From: Actinomyces sp.
GTDB taxonomy: Bacteria; Actinomycetota; Actinomycetes; Actinomycetales; Actinomycetaceae
Direction: 5' to 3'
DNA: 64,000 bases
NCBI RefSeq assembly: GCF_030524025.1
Contig: NZ_JAUNHI010000003.1
Coordinates: forward strand, 105,648 to 169,647
Shown here: piece after piece, positions 13,976-20,413 of the stretch
How the letters are laid out: each line of letters opens with the position of its first letter
How positions within the stretch are numbered: position 1 is the first letter of the stretch
The notes under the pieces: model-generated
What the model was told of the DNA's origin: nothing
What the model saw: only the letters and a program-made list of their open reading frames with translations
Database searches by the model: none
Made by a program: the position numbers and the translations under genes

Positions 13976-14007
13976 ACCTATTGAGTACCACCCAGCAAGG
14001 AGTTCCC

Positions 14008-16215
14008 ATGCCCCTCCCGCCATCCCCCTCGCCCCGCACCACCGGTCGCGTCACCCTTCCCATCGAGGAGGGCATCGACGACCAGCTCCGCGAGCTCGTC
14101 GCGGCCCTGGGGGCCGACGCGGTGCGCAACTCCGACGGCACCTGGCTGCCCGAGGTCGCCACCGAGCTCGTCGAGAAGGTCTACTCGACCTACTTCCCCG
14201 CCCGGGGCGACCAGGAGTGGGCACTGGCCCACCCCGACACCCTGGTCAACCAGTACCTCCTGAGCCCCCGCGTGACCGCGACCGGGCCCGGCCCGCTGGA
14301 CATCGACGTCATGGAGGGCTATTTCCGCGAGCAGTTCACGCCCTGCTACGAGCGTGTCGAGAGGTTCTGGGAGGTCATCGACCGCACGACCGGCCGGGTC
14401 GTGCCCACCCAGGAGTGGAGCGTCGAGCAGTCCACGGGTGTGGTCACCATTTCCCGGCCCGAGCCGTGGCACGTCTACACCGTCGCCTTCCTCGCCGACC
14501 AGGTGTGGGACACCACCCAGATGTACAACTACATCACCAACGGCTGGGACTCCACCGACCCCACCCGCGTCAAGGAGCGCCCCTACGACATCCGCAAGAA
14601 CGGGGTGTGGGAGCACGCCCGCCAGGCGCTGAGCAGCTGGCTCGAGGACCACCCCGAGGTAGACGTCGTGCGCTTCACGACTTTCTTCTACCACTTCACT
14701 ATTGCCTTCGACACCGAGGGCCGGGAGAAGTTCGTCGACTGGTTCGGTTACTCGGCCTCGGTGTCCCCCGAGGCGATCGACGCCTTCGAGGCGGAGTACG
14801 GCTACGCCCTGCGCGCCGAGGACTTCGTCGACGCCGGCTACTACAACTCCCCCTTCCGCATCCCCTCACCGGCCTTCCGGGACTGGATCGACTTCCAGTC
14901 GCGTTTCGTGTCCGCCCGCGCCAAGGAGCTGGTCGACATCACCCACGCCGCCGGGCGCGAGGCCATGATGTTCCTCGGCGACAACTGGATCGGCACCGAG
15001 CCCTACGGGCCGCACTTCGCCTCCATCGGCCTGGACGCCGTCGTCGGCTCGGCCGGCTCGGCCGCCACGACCCGGCTCATCGGCGACATCCCGGGGGTGA
15101 GATACACCGAGGTGCGGTTCCTGCCCTACTTCTTCCCCGACGTGTTCAACCACGACGGCGGTGACCCAGTGGGCGAGGCCAACGAGTCATGGCTGACCAG
15201 CCGCCGCGCCATCGTGCGCCGCCCCCTGGACCGCATGGGCTACGGCGGCTACGTCTCCCTGGCCCTGGAGTTCCCGGAGTTCATCGAGAGGATCACCGAG
15301 ATCTGCCAGGAGTTCCGCGACATCCACGAACGCTCCGGCGGCGAGCTGCCCGCCAACGCCCCCTTCACCGTCGGCATCCTCAACTCCTGGGGCGCCCTGC
15401 GCTCCTGGCAGACCCACATGGTGGCCCACGCCAAGTGGTACAAGGCCGCCTACTCCTACGTCGGCGTCGTCGAGGCACTGGCCGGGCTGCCCTTCGAGGT
15501 GCGATTCCTGTCCTTCGACGAGGTCCTGGCCGACGGCGTGCCCGAGGACATCGGGGTGCTCATCAACGCAGGCGCGGCCGGCACCGCCTTCTCCGGGGGC
15601 GAGTCCTGGGCCGACGAGCGCCTGACCGGCCTCATCCGCTCCTGGGTGGCGGCCGGCCACGGCTTCATCGGCGTGGGCGAGCCCACCGCCGTCGACCACG
15701 GGGGCGCCTTCCTCCAGCTCTCTGACGTCCTGGGCGTTGAGCGCGAGCGCCAGCTGAGCCTGTCGACCGACCGCTACCCGGTCCTGGTCGAGGACCACCC
15801 CATCATGGCCGATGTCGAGGGGGCCTTCGACGACGGGCAGGGCGCCGGCGGGGACGTCTACGCCACGGGGCCGCTCGCCCGGGTGCTGTCCTACGTCGAG
15901 GGCACCGTGCGGGTGGCGGTCAACGAGTTCGGGGAGGGTCGGGCCGTGTACTTCTCCGGCCTGCCCTACTCCCCGGTCAACTCCCGCACGCTTCAGCGCG
16001 CCCTGTACTGGGCCGCCGGGCGCGAGGACCTGCTTGAGCAGTGGTTCGCCTCCCACCCGTCCACCGAGGTGGCCTGGTACCCCGGCGGGCGCCGCTTCCT
16101 GGTCACCAACAACTCCTCTCAGACGGTGCGCACCTGCGTGCGCGGCCTGGGTCGGAGCTGGGACCTGGAGATCGAGCCCATGGGCCTGGTGTGGGTCGAC
16201 GTGGAGGGCTCCTGA
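14008..16215 (+). CDS. lnpA: 1,3-beta-galactosyl-N-acetylhexosamine phosphorylase (GH112)
   Basis: Phosphorolyses lacto-N-biose and galacto-N-biose to galactose-1-phosphate plus GlcNAc or GalNAc in the cytoplasm. These disaccharides come from human milk oligosaccharides and mucin glycans. The 735-residue length matches the family (about 720-750). The catalytic acid is Asp325 in MFLGDNWIGTEPYG. The TIM-barrel core (RFTTFFYHFTIAFD, DWFGYSASVSPEAI) precedes it, and the C-terminal part has a glutamine-amidotransferase-like fold. AAGGAG about 7 nt before ATG 14008 sets the start. The DeoR regulator lies upstream; no LNB transporter, nahK or galE is adjacent, unlike the bifidobacterial cluster. Confidence 0.94.
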   Translation: MPLPPSPSPRTTGRVTLPIEEGIDDQLRELVAALGADAVRNSDGTWLPEVATELVEKVYSTYFPARGDQEWALAHPDTLVNQYLLSPRVTATGPGPLDIDVMEGYFREQFTPCYERVERFWEVIDRTTGRVVPTQEWSVEQSTGVVTISRPEPWHVYTVAFLADQVWDTTQMYNYITNGWDSTDPTRVKERPYDIRKNGVWEHARQALSSWLEDHPEVDVVRFTTFFYHFTIAFDTEGREKFVDWFGYSASVSPEAIDAFEAEYGYALRAEDFVDAGYYNSPFRIPSPAFRDWIDFQSRFVSARAKELVDITHAAGREAMMFLGDNWIGTEPYGPHFASIGLDAVVGSAGSAATTRLIGDIPGVRYTEVRFLPYFFPDVFNHDGGDPVGEANESWLTSRRAIVRRPLDRMGYGGYVSLALEFPEFIERITEICQEFRDIHERSGGELPANAPFTVGILNSWGALRSWQTHMVAHAKWYKAAYSYVGVVEALAGLPFEVRFLSFDEVLADGVPEDIGVLINAGAAGTAFSGGESWADERLTGLIRSWVAAGHGFIGVGEPTAVDHGGAFLQLSDVLGVERERQLSLSTDRYPVLVEDHPIMADVEGAFDDGQGAGGDVYATGPLARVLSYVEGTVRVAVNEFGEGRAVYFSGLPYSPVNSRTLQRALYWAAGREDLLEQWFASHPSTEVAWYPGGRRFLVTNNSSQTVRTCVRGLGRSWDLEIEPMGLVWVDVEGS

Positions 16216-16287: not shown

Positions 16288-17631
16288 TCAGGGGCGGATG
16301 TGCCCGTCGCCCTCGACGACCCAGGTCGTGCTCGTCAGGGCGGTCAGTCCCATGGGCCCGCGGGCGTGGAGCTTCTGGGTGGAGATGCCCAGCTCGGCCC
16401 CCAGGCCCAGTTGGCCGCCGTCGGTGAAACGGGTCGAGGCGTTGACCATGATGGCCGCCGAGTCCACCCCGGCCACGAAACGGTTGATCGCGGCGACGTC
16501 GCGGCTGAGGATCGCCTCGGTGTGCCCGGTGGAGTGGGCCGCGATGTGGGCGACGGCGTCGTCGAGGTCCTCGACCACCCTGACGGCCAGGTCGAGGCTG
16601 CCGTACTCGGTGTCCCAGTCCTGTGAGGTGGCCGGCGCGAGCAGGGCACCGTGGCCGTCGGCCTTGGCGGTCTCGGCCAGGGCGCCGTGCGCGGCCGGGT
16701 CGGCGTGGAGCGTGACCCCCTCGGCCCACAGGGCCGCGGCCGCCGCCGGCAGGAGCTCACCCGCGACGTCGGGGTGGACGAGGAGGGTCTCGGCGGCATT
16801 GCACACGCCCACCCGTTGGGTCTTGGCGTTGACGATGATCCTGACCGCCGCCTCCAGGTCGGCCGCCGCGTCGACGTAGATGTGGCAGTTGCCGGAGCCG
16901 GTCTCGATCACCGGCACCGAGGACTGCTCGACGACTGCCCGGATGAGTCCGGCCCCGCCACGGGGCACAAGGACGTCGATGAGGCCACGGGCACCCATGA
17001 GGGCCGTGGCGCCGGCGCGTCCGGCGGGGTCGATCGTGGTGACAAGGTCGACGGGAAGGCCGGTGGAGGCCAGTGCCTCACGCAGGACCGCGATGATCGC
17101 GGCGTTGGAGGACTGGGCGGCGCTGCCGCCGCGCAGCACGACGGCGTTGCCGGACTTCAGGGTCAAGGCGGCGACGTCGACGGTGACATTGGGTCGCGCC
17201 TCGTAGATCATGCCGACCACGCCCATGGGCACGCGGATGCGCCGCACCCGCAGACCGTTGGGCAGGGTCTGGCCGTCGACGACCTGGCCGACGGGGTCGG
17301 GCAGGGCCGCGATCTCGCGCACGGCCGCCGCGATGGCCTCGATGCGCTCGGCGGTCAGGGCCAGCCGGTCGATCAGGCCCGGTTTCATCCCCTCCTGACG
17401 GGCGCGCTCGAGGTCCTCGGCGTTGGCCTCCAGGATCGTGTCGGTGGCCGCGACGAGGTGGTCGGCCATGGCCGACAGCGCGGCGTCCTTGGCCTCGCGG
17501 TTGAGCCCCGCGATGCCCCGCTGGGCGGCGCGTGCGGCTCGGGCGACGGCCTCGACGTAGGCGGTGGCGTCCTGTGTGTGGTCGGGCAGTGCGGTGCTGG
17601 AGGCGTCAGGGGTGACCGGCGTCGTGCTCAT
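16288..17631 (-). CDS. proA: Glutamate-5-semialdehyde dehydrogenase (gamma-glutamyl phosphate reductase)
   Basis: Second step of proline synthesis: NADPH-dependent reduction of gamma-glutamyl phosphate. 447 residues of the aldehyde dehydrogenase superfamily, slightly long for ProA because of an N-terminal extension of about 20 residues. Family signatures are [25 protein letters not shown] and the active-site Cys in [11 protein letters not shown]. Normally it follows proB closely; here a 1.5-kb insertion separates them. It starts at ATG 17631, 6 nt after TACTGT, so it has its own leaderless promoter and can be expressed without proB readthrough. Confidence 0.95.
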
Positions 17632-17718: not shown

Positions 17719-17755
17719 CTCAGCCGGCGGTGCGGGGCAGCTCGGCGAGGTCGTC
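17719..17755 (+). repeat. 37-bp direct repeat, left copy (att-like)
   Basis: Identical over 37 bp to 19252-19288; flanking bases differ on both sides. It duplicates the last 11 codons and the stop of proB. Confidence 0.92.
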
Positions 17756-17838
17756 CATACCGAACAAGGCGATATGGGACAATCCGTGCAGTTGGCGGCG
17801 GGCCGCGACCCGCCCCTCGCATGCTGAGAGGTGACCTG

Positions 17839-19002
17839 GTGCGGATCACACACATCTGCGCAAGCAACTGGCGGAACTTCAAGAACGTCGATTTCGAGGT
17901 CGGCGACCGGCTGTTCATCGTCGGCCCCAACGCCTCGGGGAAATCGAATCTTCTCGACCTTCTCCGCTTCCTGTCTGACATCGCCGAGCCAGGAGGAGGC
18001 CTGGCCTCGGCGATCGAGCGCCGAGGAGGCCTGACCAAGGTACGCAGTCTCTTCGCTCGCAACAACGCCAAGGGGCGCCTGGTCGTCGACGTGCGTCTGC
18101 GCGACGGGGCGGACCTGTGGCGCTACCACCTGTCGATCAAGGGAGAGTCCGGCGGGCGCAACCGGCCGATCGTCGACGCCGAGATCGTCGAGCTCAACGA
18201 CACGACGCTGCTGCACCGGCCCGATGAGGACGACCGGGAGGACCCTGAGCGGCTCACCCAGACCCACCTCGAGCAGATCGCCGCCAACAAGGAGTTCCGC
18301 CTCATCGCGGACTACTTCTCCCGCGTCCAGTACTTCCACCTCGTCCCCCAGATCATTCGTGACCCGGGTCGGACCACCCCCGCGCACGACGACCCGTACG
18401 GCAGCGAGTTCATCGCGCAGATGAACGCCACGCCGACACTGACGCGCAACGCATGGCTCCGGCGGATGCAGGCGGCGCTCCAGGCCGCCGTCCCGGGCTT
18501 CGAGTCCCTGAGCATTGAAACCGACGCGGCGGGACGACCACACCTGGTGGCGGGCTACAAGAACTGGCGCTCGAAGCCATCACGCCAGTCCGAGGCGGAT
18601 TTCTCCGACGGGACGCTCCGACTCATCGGCCTCCTGTGGTCCATCATCAAGGCCCCGGCCAATCCCGGTGTCCTACTGCTTGAGGAGCCCGAGCTGTCGC
18701 TCAACAACGCTATCGTGAGGACACTGCCATCCGTCCTGGCCCAGGTGAGACGCTCCTCGGACCTGCAGATCATCTTGTCGACGCACGCCCCCGAGATTCT
18801 CAACGACGAGGGCATTCACCCAGATGAAGTCCTCGTCCTGCGCGTCACCGACGACGGCTCCCGGGCCTGCCTGCTGGCGGAGCTGCCTGAGGTCGCGCAG
18901 CTCGAGATCGGTCTGAGTGTCTCGGAGGTCGTCGAGGGACTCATCGCTCCTGACGACCTCACAGGGTTCATGACCGCGACCCGGGGCAAGGGCCGCCGAT
19001 GA
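17839..19002 (+). CDS. AAA family ATPase (AAA_21 / OLD-like, SMC-type nucleotide binding)
   Basis: 387 residues with an SMC/RecF-like ATPase core. The N-terminal strand is [19 protein letters not shown], the Walker A is [14 protein letters not shown] near residue 30, the signature-like segment is [13 protein letters not shown], the Walker B is [13 protein letters not shown], and the H-loop is [13 protein letters not shown]. This matches predicted ATPases of the AAA_21 group that pair with TOPRIM-type nucleases in anti-phage systems. GTG at 17839 is preferred because GAGAGGTG precedes it. Its stop overlaps the start of the next gene (ATGA), so the two form an operon. It lies between 37-bp repeats of the proB 3' end. 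A defence role is inference from the gene pairing. Confidence 0.85.
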
Positions 19003-19376
19003 GCAACGCCCCCGGGGACCCGTCCGTGCGGGTCGCTGTCGAGGGCCAGTCCGACACGGGCATGGTCGAGACTCTGCTCGCACACGTCGGACTAGCCCTG
19101 ACCCGTCCCTGCCTCGTCAGGAACGGGTCATCGAAGCTCGATGACCTCATCCCGAACCTAGCCCGCACGACGCTCTACGACCCGTGGATCGTCTTCCGCG
19201 ACGCTGATACCGCCTGCCCCGATACGACTCGGAGTACCGCCCCTTGCGGGGCTCAGCCGGCGGTGCGGGGCAGCTCGGCGAGGTCGTCGCGGTGCACGAC
19301 GGGGGCCACGTGGTCGGGGCCGGGCCGTCGGTGGGCGCGCGCCTCGATGACCTCCTCGAGCTCGGCGGCCGAGTAG
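18999..19376 (+). pseudogene. Truncated TOPRIM/DUF4276-like partner of the ATPase
   Basis: The ATG overlaps the ATPase stop by 4 nt. Residues 9-72 look like the start of a DUF4276/OLD-type TOPRIM domain: VRVAVEGQSDTGMVETLL carries the conserved Glu, and WIVFRDADTACP carries the acidic pair. After about position 19215 the homology ends. The frame then runs into the antisense of proB, producing a Ser/Arg-rich shadow tail to 19376. Full-length partners are about 200 residues, so the 3' two-thirds is missing. Either the nuclease is dead or the fusion makes a short peptide. It ends where the right-hand 37-bp repeat begins. Confidence 0.6.
19252..19288 (+). repeat. 37-bp direct repeat, right copy (proB 3' end)
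   Basis: The resident copy: it includes the proB stop (19253-19255) and its last codons. It is identical to 17719-17755. A small GCCCC-TTGC-GGGGC hairpin (19239-19252) abuts it and may terminate proB transcription. Confidence 0.92.
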
Positions 19377-20413
19377 CGGCAGATCCCGCGGGCCACCGGC
19401 CCGTCGGGTCCGACGACCTCGACCACGGAGCCGGACTCGAAGTCGCCGGCGACGGCGGTCACGCCCGGCAGCAGGAGCGACTTCTTGCCCACGGTCACCG
19501 CCCGCGCCGCACCGGCGTCGATGATGACGCGCCCCTCGGGAATCGAGGCGTAGGCCATCCACAGGCGCCGGCTGGGCCGGTGCGGTCCCGTGGGCTCGAA
19601 CCAGGTCCCCAGGTCCTGGGGGATGGTGGCCTGACCCAGGAGGCGGGCGGCGTCATTGGCGGCGGCCACGATCGTGGCCGTGCCCGAGGCGCAGGCGATC
19701 GTGGCGGCCTGAGCTTTGGAGCGCATCCCCCCGGTGCCCAGGGCCGAGCCGCGTGCCGAGACATCGACCGAGGCGAGCTGGCCGGCACCGACGACGTGGC
19801 GCACCGGTACCGCCCCCGGGGTGCCCGGCCGGGCCGTCCACAGGCCGTCGACATCGGTGAACAGCACGAGGACGTCGGCGGTCACCAGGTGCGAGACGAG
19901 GGCCGCGAGATGGTCGTTGTCCCCCAGGCTGAACTCGGTGGTGGCCACGGCGTCGTTCTCATTGACCACCGGCACCGCGCCCAGGGACAGCAGGGCGTCG
20001 AAGGTGGCGCGCACGGTCCGGTAGTGGCTGCGCACCGCCACGTCCTGGACGGTGAGCAGCACCTGGGCAGTGACCACCCCGTAGGCGCTCATGGCCGTCT
20101 GCCAGCGGGCCACCAGGTTGCCCTGGCCGACCGAGGCGGCCGCCTGGAGCAGCCGCAGCTCGGTGGGCCGGGCCTCCATGCCCAGGGGGACCATGCCCGC
20201 GGCCACCGCCCCGGAGGACACGAGGACGACGTCGTGGCCCCGCTGGCGCATTCGGGCGATGAGGCCGGCCAGGATGTCGATCCGGTTGAGGTCCAGGCCC
20301 CCGTCGGGCCGGGTCAGGCTCGAGGAGCCGACCTTGAGGACGACCCGCGCACCGCTGGGCAGGCTCGTGGGACGGCCCGACGGGTCGACGGCTGGGCGCG
20401 AGGCGGTTGTCAC
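19253..20413 (-). CDS. proB: Glutamate 5-kinase
   Basis: First step of proline synthesis: ATP-dependent phosphorylation of glutamate. 386 residues: an amino-acid kinase domain ([58 protein letters not shown]) followed by a C-terminal PUA domain ([27 protein letters not shown]). The kinase domain is the usual site of proline feedback. Its ATG overlaps the obg stop by 4 nt, so it is coupled to obg. Its 3' end is the target of the inserted module, but the coding sequence and stop are intact. Confidence 0.96.

Follow-up and report, generated by a model that had tools for sequence, protein, structure and literature searches.

How did a pair of genes for an ATPase and a TOPRIM-like protein come to lie between proB and proA of an Actinomyces sp., enclosed by two copies of the end of proB? 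The locus lies in a stretch of 64,000 nucleotides, here called the window, which was compared with further genomes and loci (G and L numbers, respectively; G000 is the genome of the window). The feature is likely a HEC-01 cassette that was inserted long ago, with duplication of its target, and is now decaying. The repeat would accordingly have originated from the insertion itself.

The two copies (17719–17755 and 19252–19288) form a perfect direct repeat of 37 bp (37/37 identical), found both by reading the sequence and by a repeat search, and the alignment stretches to 50 nt at 92% identity. Of the two, the right copy constitutes the proB end and contains the complement of the stop codon at 19253–19255. 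The left copy, an orphan, begins 88 bp away from the start codon of proA. Comparison of the proB end with the gap gave a score of 36, and the maximum among 20 shuffles was 12. A whole-genome scan with a 27-nt core of the repeat, allowing up to three mismatches, returned two sites only, which are the two copies. They enclose the whole ATPase frame and the start of the partner gene, both antiparallel to proB and proA. The partner start at 18999 overlaps the ATPase end by 4 nt. A sequence-only reading of the window had described the repeat, the orphan copy and the two overlapping genes on the opposite strand; all of these were confirmed, and the partner proved in addition to be broken. The features of the locus are as follows.

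16345–17631, minus strand: proA (glutamate-5-semialdehyde dehydrogenase), left neighbour, start codon at 17631; Pfam Aldedh 4.4e-18.
17719–17755, plus strand: left orphan copy of the proB 3' end, read as a remnant of target duplication; 37/37 against 19252–19288, counterparts in G012 and G026.
17756–17838, plus strand: left end of the cassette and ATPase upstream region, 83 bp; shared in part with G012.
17839–19002, plus strand: HEC-01A-type ABC/AAA_21 ATPase, 387 residues, intact frame; AAA_21 1.8e-29, PDLC04180 1.2e-163.
18999–19223, plus strand: truncated HEC-01B-type TOPRIM partner, ~75 genuine codons; 69% identity to the G012 partner over the aligned part.
19239–19252, plus strand: GC-rich hairpin (GCCCC TTGC GGGGC) by the proB stop, a possible terminator; read from the sequence.
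19252–19288, plus strand: right copy, the true proB 3' end including the stop codon; sequence and repeat search.
19253–20413, minus strand: proB (glutamate 5-kinase), right neighbour, intact; AA_kinase 3.4e-35, PUA 5.8e-17.

The hairpin at 19239–19252 has perfect GC pairing, and a looser look-alike adjoins the left copy.

The ATPase matches the PADLOC model HEC-01A (PDLC04180) over residues 1–376 of 387, and its predicted structural model has a pLDDT of 88.4. The dN/dS of the ATPase is 0.21 for G000 and G012 and 0.07–0.21 across six pairs. Whole partners of relatives match HEC-01B (PDLC04197) at 1e-71 to 1e-86, stand adjacent to their ATPases and frequently share the 4-nt overlap. They comprise about 200 codons, compared with the ~75 of the window partner, whose open frame continues to 19376 through non-homologous sequence. 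The fragment was placed by alignment with G012. The distance from the partner start to the proB stop is 254 nt in the window and 624 nt in G012. The window locus is a decayed HEC-01 copy, with the HEC-01A component present and the whole adjacent HEC-01B partner missing.

HEC-01, which is named among the detected systems in PMC12724379, is a candidate defence system with an anti-phage role predicted from homology. In structure comparison, the closest folds to the partner are the TOPRIM chains of OLD and PARIS; the partner profile found no match among PDB sequences up to an E-value of 1. HEC-01 resembles the OLD nucleases and PARIS (AriA/AriB) in its split into an ABC ATPase and a TOPRIM protein; for PARIS the two are described as encoded by separate genes (PMC10568477). 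The match of the AriA profile to the window ATPase (3.7e-28), however, is far weaker than that of HEC-01A, and no AriB model was among the matches of two whole partners (E-values up to 0.1). By analogy, the intact pair is probably a split OLD nuclease working like PARIS. The ATPase would sense infection and hold or release the TOPRIM nuclease.

Flanking repeats are also present around HEC-01 cassettes elsewhere. The survey comprised 72 cassettes outside the proB-proA slot, with a repeat score of at least 18 and 259 displaced windows of the same loci as controls. From 89 loci, 17 had been dropped beforehand (7 Actinomyces proAB loci, 4 duplicates or reversed loci and 6 lacking a partner match or with short flanks). 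Repeats flank 10/72 cassettes and 1/259 displaced windows (Fisher p 1.3e-6). An earlier variant with wider flanks and a score of at least 23 gave 12/85 and 4/190. The repeats of L135 and L136, seen in the wider-flank version only and not reached in the 72-cassette count, were discounted by eye, as similar genes stand on both sides.

The ten repeats (identities/length) are those of L124 from Microbacterium thalli (105/105), L192 (107/112), L176 (97/97), L213 (55/56), L125 (65/71), L203 (42/43), L130 (50/57), L191 (57/69), L157 (25/26) and L189 (25/28). A further set of eleven loci, in which L280 and probably L282 represent sites tested before, added L281 (22/22) and L247 (61/68). Repeat lengths thus range from 22 to 112 bp. 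In five of these ten cassettes, 74–80 bp separate the end of the left copy from the beginning of the ATPase match; in G000 the distance to the start codon is 83 bp. At the other end, seven of the ten have a right copy that begins no more than 82 bp from the partner stop. Inspection by eye revealed no terminal sequence shared among the cassettes.

The duplicated targets include gene starts and gene ends, in different sequences. In M. thalli the duplicate consists of the final codons of a DUF1697 gene with its stop, in G152 (42/43) of the end of dtd, and at L281 of sequence near the end of a long frame that looks permease-like by eye. L125 duplicates a piece of rpoC ~110 bp before its stop. At L189 the start of a DUF1156 gene is duplicated, which was confirmed by profile. 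L192, where the gene is of the methylase type, and L247 appear likewise to duplicate a gene start, DUF1156-type by translation. A conserved core common to all insertions was not found; the repeats differ among the cassettes, except within the DUF1156-type group. At L192, L189 and L247, HEC-01 stands directly before the DUF1156-type gene whose start is duplicated on the other side. This layout is a possible route for HEC-01 into larger defence operons.

Sites lacking the insert were found among relatives. In Microbacterium, 54/119 genomes match the DUF1697 protein, many of them weakly, and only M. thalli showed the gene end in a second copy. At this site the ATPase is present in 0/29 other Microbacterium genomes read. 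A recQ match begins 55–971 bp downstream in 24/29 of them, and recQ also stands beyond the cassette in M. thalli. At the dtd site, the ATPase is present in 2/30 loci read from the genus of G152.

Within the proB-proA slot itself, a proA-side duplicate of the genome's own proB end is present in 3/42 junctions searched, 17 of which are occupied. The three are G000 (37 bp), G012 (25/25) and G026 (49/51, next to proA); of the 16 other occupied junctions that were searched, two thus also have a duplicate. The G012 copy is at the homologous place, between shared flanks. Since G012 carries the copy together with a whole partner, the duplication predates the truncation in G000.

The slot was followed across the genus. 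proA was found in 48/49 genus genomes, that of the window included, and the proA side was read in 47 relatives. The ATPase or a remnant of it is present in the slot in 18/48 genomes. Fourteen of these 18 have most of the ATPase (two are frameshifted), and four have remnants only (G033, G003, G035 and G025, the last a weak 43-residue match). Eleven ATPase frames were verified as whole; a twelfth (G023) has no stop. Whole partners occur at the slot in 8 relatives. A whole ATPase with a lost or broken partner is present in four genomes (G000, G005, G015 and G017). Approximate gaps of 238 bp or less were found in 20/47 junctions with both genes in reach. With this distribution, the slot is a long-standing home in the genus, with loss and decay. 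The sequence-only reading had proposed a comparison of these junctions and had stated that the ATPase and two copies as a fixed feature of all relatives would refute it. Junctions without the pair do exist and neither the ATPase nor the duplicate is fixed, although none of the junctions with such small gaps belongs to a near relative of G000.

The history of the slot is not one of clear single insertion followed by descent. Identities of the ATPase and of ProA+ProB correlate (Pearson 0.73, Spearman 0.47, 105 non-independent pairs), but a single clade of proAB-located rows was rejected in a quick ATPase tree of 58 rows (approximately unbiased test, AU, p 0.017), and G030 is positioned differently in the ATPase and proAB trees. 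More than one arrival at the slot, or exchange between species, is possible. Among 89 further loci, proA or proB was in reach in 7, all from Actinomyces (flanks up to 5 kb; 1.5 kb for nine). At E-values up to 1e-90, the ATPase was detected in 5/396 genomes drawn from the phylum and in 7/398 from the family of M. thalli. The window ATPase had no match in plasmids at 1e-30 or in phages at 1e-20, and IMG/VR yielded one contig with 43% identity to it; transport on plasmids or phages was rejected.

The proB-proA junction is generally variable. In G003 (L091), the first ~117 ATPase residues are apparently fused in-frame to most of the TOPRIM partner. A rule that the partner is lost before the ATPase is not claimed, given this fusion. 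The partner was not found in G015 (L095) or G048 (L084), where the ATPase and proB are separated by a LacI-type regulator and a sugar ABC-transporter-like operon (names by eye). Other frames, for example lipoprotein-like ones (by eye), occupy the gap of G006, G008, G016 and G042 (L090, L101, L100 and L089), and the gap is likewise filled by other open frames in G004 (L085) and G002 (L106). In G033 (L077) there is no proB within 10 kb of proA, and a match to the proB-end pattern lies ~12 kb away.

Six of the 49 genus genomes have, in one copy each, a conserved and very stable structured element of ~95 nt between proA and the ATPase. It is located as follows.

L074, 1907–2005
L080, 1905–2003
L075, 1844–1940
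L078, 1897–1995
L076, 9757–9855, minus strand
L077, 9809–9905, minus strand

Of its 32 predicted pairs, 3 are changed on both sides and none is broken. Rfam at gathering thresholds gave no match in the loci of three relatives, this element included, and the element is absent from the window genome. Elsewhere in the window there are two tandem tRNA-Ala genes with anticodon GGC (2705–2884) and a gene for a lacto-N-biose phosphorylase of 739 residues (13996–16215) that adjoins a DeoR-type regulator.

For the insertion the following course is proposed. A HEC-01 cassette of ~80 bp upstream DNA, the ABC/AAA_21 ATPase and the TOPRIM-fold partner would have inserted downstream of proB and duplicated the proB 3' end. 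proB would thereby remain intact, with the orphan copy left towards proA; the neighbouring gene stays whole because the target is duplicated. The family would move as a bare two-gene cassette, making long duplications of variable length of whatever target it entered. In the window genome the partner is now without its last two thirds. The copied scraps of differing neighbours in unrelated bacteria suggest that the HEC-01 module moves between genomes without a transposase of its own. No recombinase was found between the copies or among six neighbouring genes tested in the window (the scan did not extend to genes around the other cassettes). One could speculate that HEC-01 is itself a mobile element, with the ATPase and TOPRIM nuclease cutting and copying their own cassette into new sites, thereby producing the long staggered duplications, and the immune nuclease doubling as transposase, but this seems doubtful.

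Site-specific integration, which the sequence-only reading had favoured, would involve a tyrosine or serine recombinase, either lost or acting in trans, with the proB 3' end as attachment site, the copies being attL and attR. It would account for the duplication of a gene 3' end that leaves proB whole and for the frequent occupation of the slot, and the lack of a single proAB clade in the quick ATPase tree allows for more than one arrival. However, no recombinase turned up between the copies or in the six genes tested, related cassettes duplicate other sequences of differing lengths, some of them gene starts, and only three proAB junctions have a duplicate. This explanation is therefore very improbable, and a recent site-specific insertion at proB is rejected on the distribution in the genus and the varied targets. 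What stands of the earlier proposal is a candidate defence pair that was mobile in evolution and a repeat that fits duplication of the proB end by insertion; the fresh footprint, since so many relatives are occupied, and the recombinase as agent do not.

The repeat might instead stem from a later local event, such as gene conversion or recombination with DNA of a relative that brought a piece of proB to the side of proA or truncated the partner. The perfect identity in G000 despite the age of the slot is in line with this. The copies also have similar flanks (50 nt, 92% identity), so that the repeat may have taken part in the deletion of the partner end, and the conflicting position of G030 is a sign of exchange between species. 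The homologous copy beside a whole partner in G012 shows, on the other hand, that the duplicate is older than the truncation, and a similar layout recurs at unrelated sites where relatives are without the insert. A later local event is thus unlikely. Chance or an assembly artefact is of negligible probability: the assembly is a 55-contig draft, but the alignment score far exceeds that of the shuffles, the flanks differ, and the homologous left copy in G012 comes from a separate single-contig assembly.

Several observations weigh against an old target-duplicating insertion. At the slot, 14/17 occupied proAB junctions searched have no flanking repeat, and 62/72 cassettes elsewhere also lack one, so that decay or repeat-free insertion must be assumed. 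The controls were displaced windows and not other imported cassettes. Among the ten positive cassettes, L191 is flanked by similar genes that look like a paralogous pair and is to be discounted although counted, and L157 is weak (26 bp, copies 429 and 122 bp from the genes). No near relative with an empty slot was found; G012, the nearest to G000, is also occupied. Furthermore, G000 and G012 show stronger conservation of the left copy than of the sequence around it, contrary to expectation for a neutral remnant. About 30% of synonymous sites differ between the two genomes, yet the shared 25 nt are identical (0/25 differences). By a rough hand estimate, the chance of this under neutrality is ~1 in 10,000. 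This would be accounted for by gene conversion from proB or by a function of the copy itself.

An old insertion with target duplication has a counterpart in restriction-modification genes of Helicobacter pylori and others, for which cassettes without their own transposase and variable target repeats on the order of 100 bp are described (PMC3874152, PMC3031569, PMC1643837); one such insertion is possibly inside another restriction-modification cluster (PMC4978471). HEC-01 shares with these the direct target repeats of variable length at both ends (37/37 in the window) and the lack of a transposase or integrase, the two copies enclosing nothing but the ATPase and the partner fragment. It differs in its cargo, an ATPase-TOPRIM pair, in several shorter repeats (22–57 bp) and in hosts that span several phyla, partly metagenome bins. 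Integrase-type genomic islands with att sites are unlike the window locus, where a recombinase is missing between the copies and among the six neighbours, although a distant trans-acting gene is possible. Such mobility is not stated for HEC-01 in the titles and opening abstracts of the literature, in which preprints were thinly covered, and an earlier report is possible.

The wider question is how small defence modules without a transposase are transferred between genomes. If HEC-01 pairs insert as restriction-modification genes do, target-duplicating insertion would not be special to the latter. The repeats would then mark the ends of the cassette and allow tests for empty sites. Microbacterium thalli represents a recent-looking case in which movement is testable, and the Actinomyces slot would illustrate the later fate of such an insertion: long residence, loss and decay.
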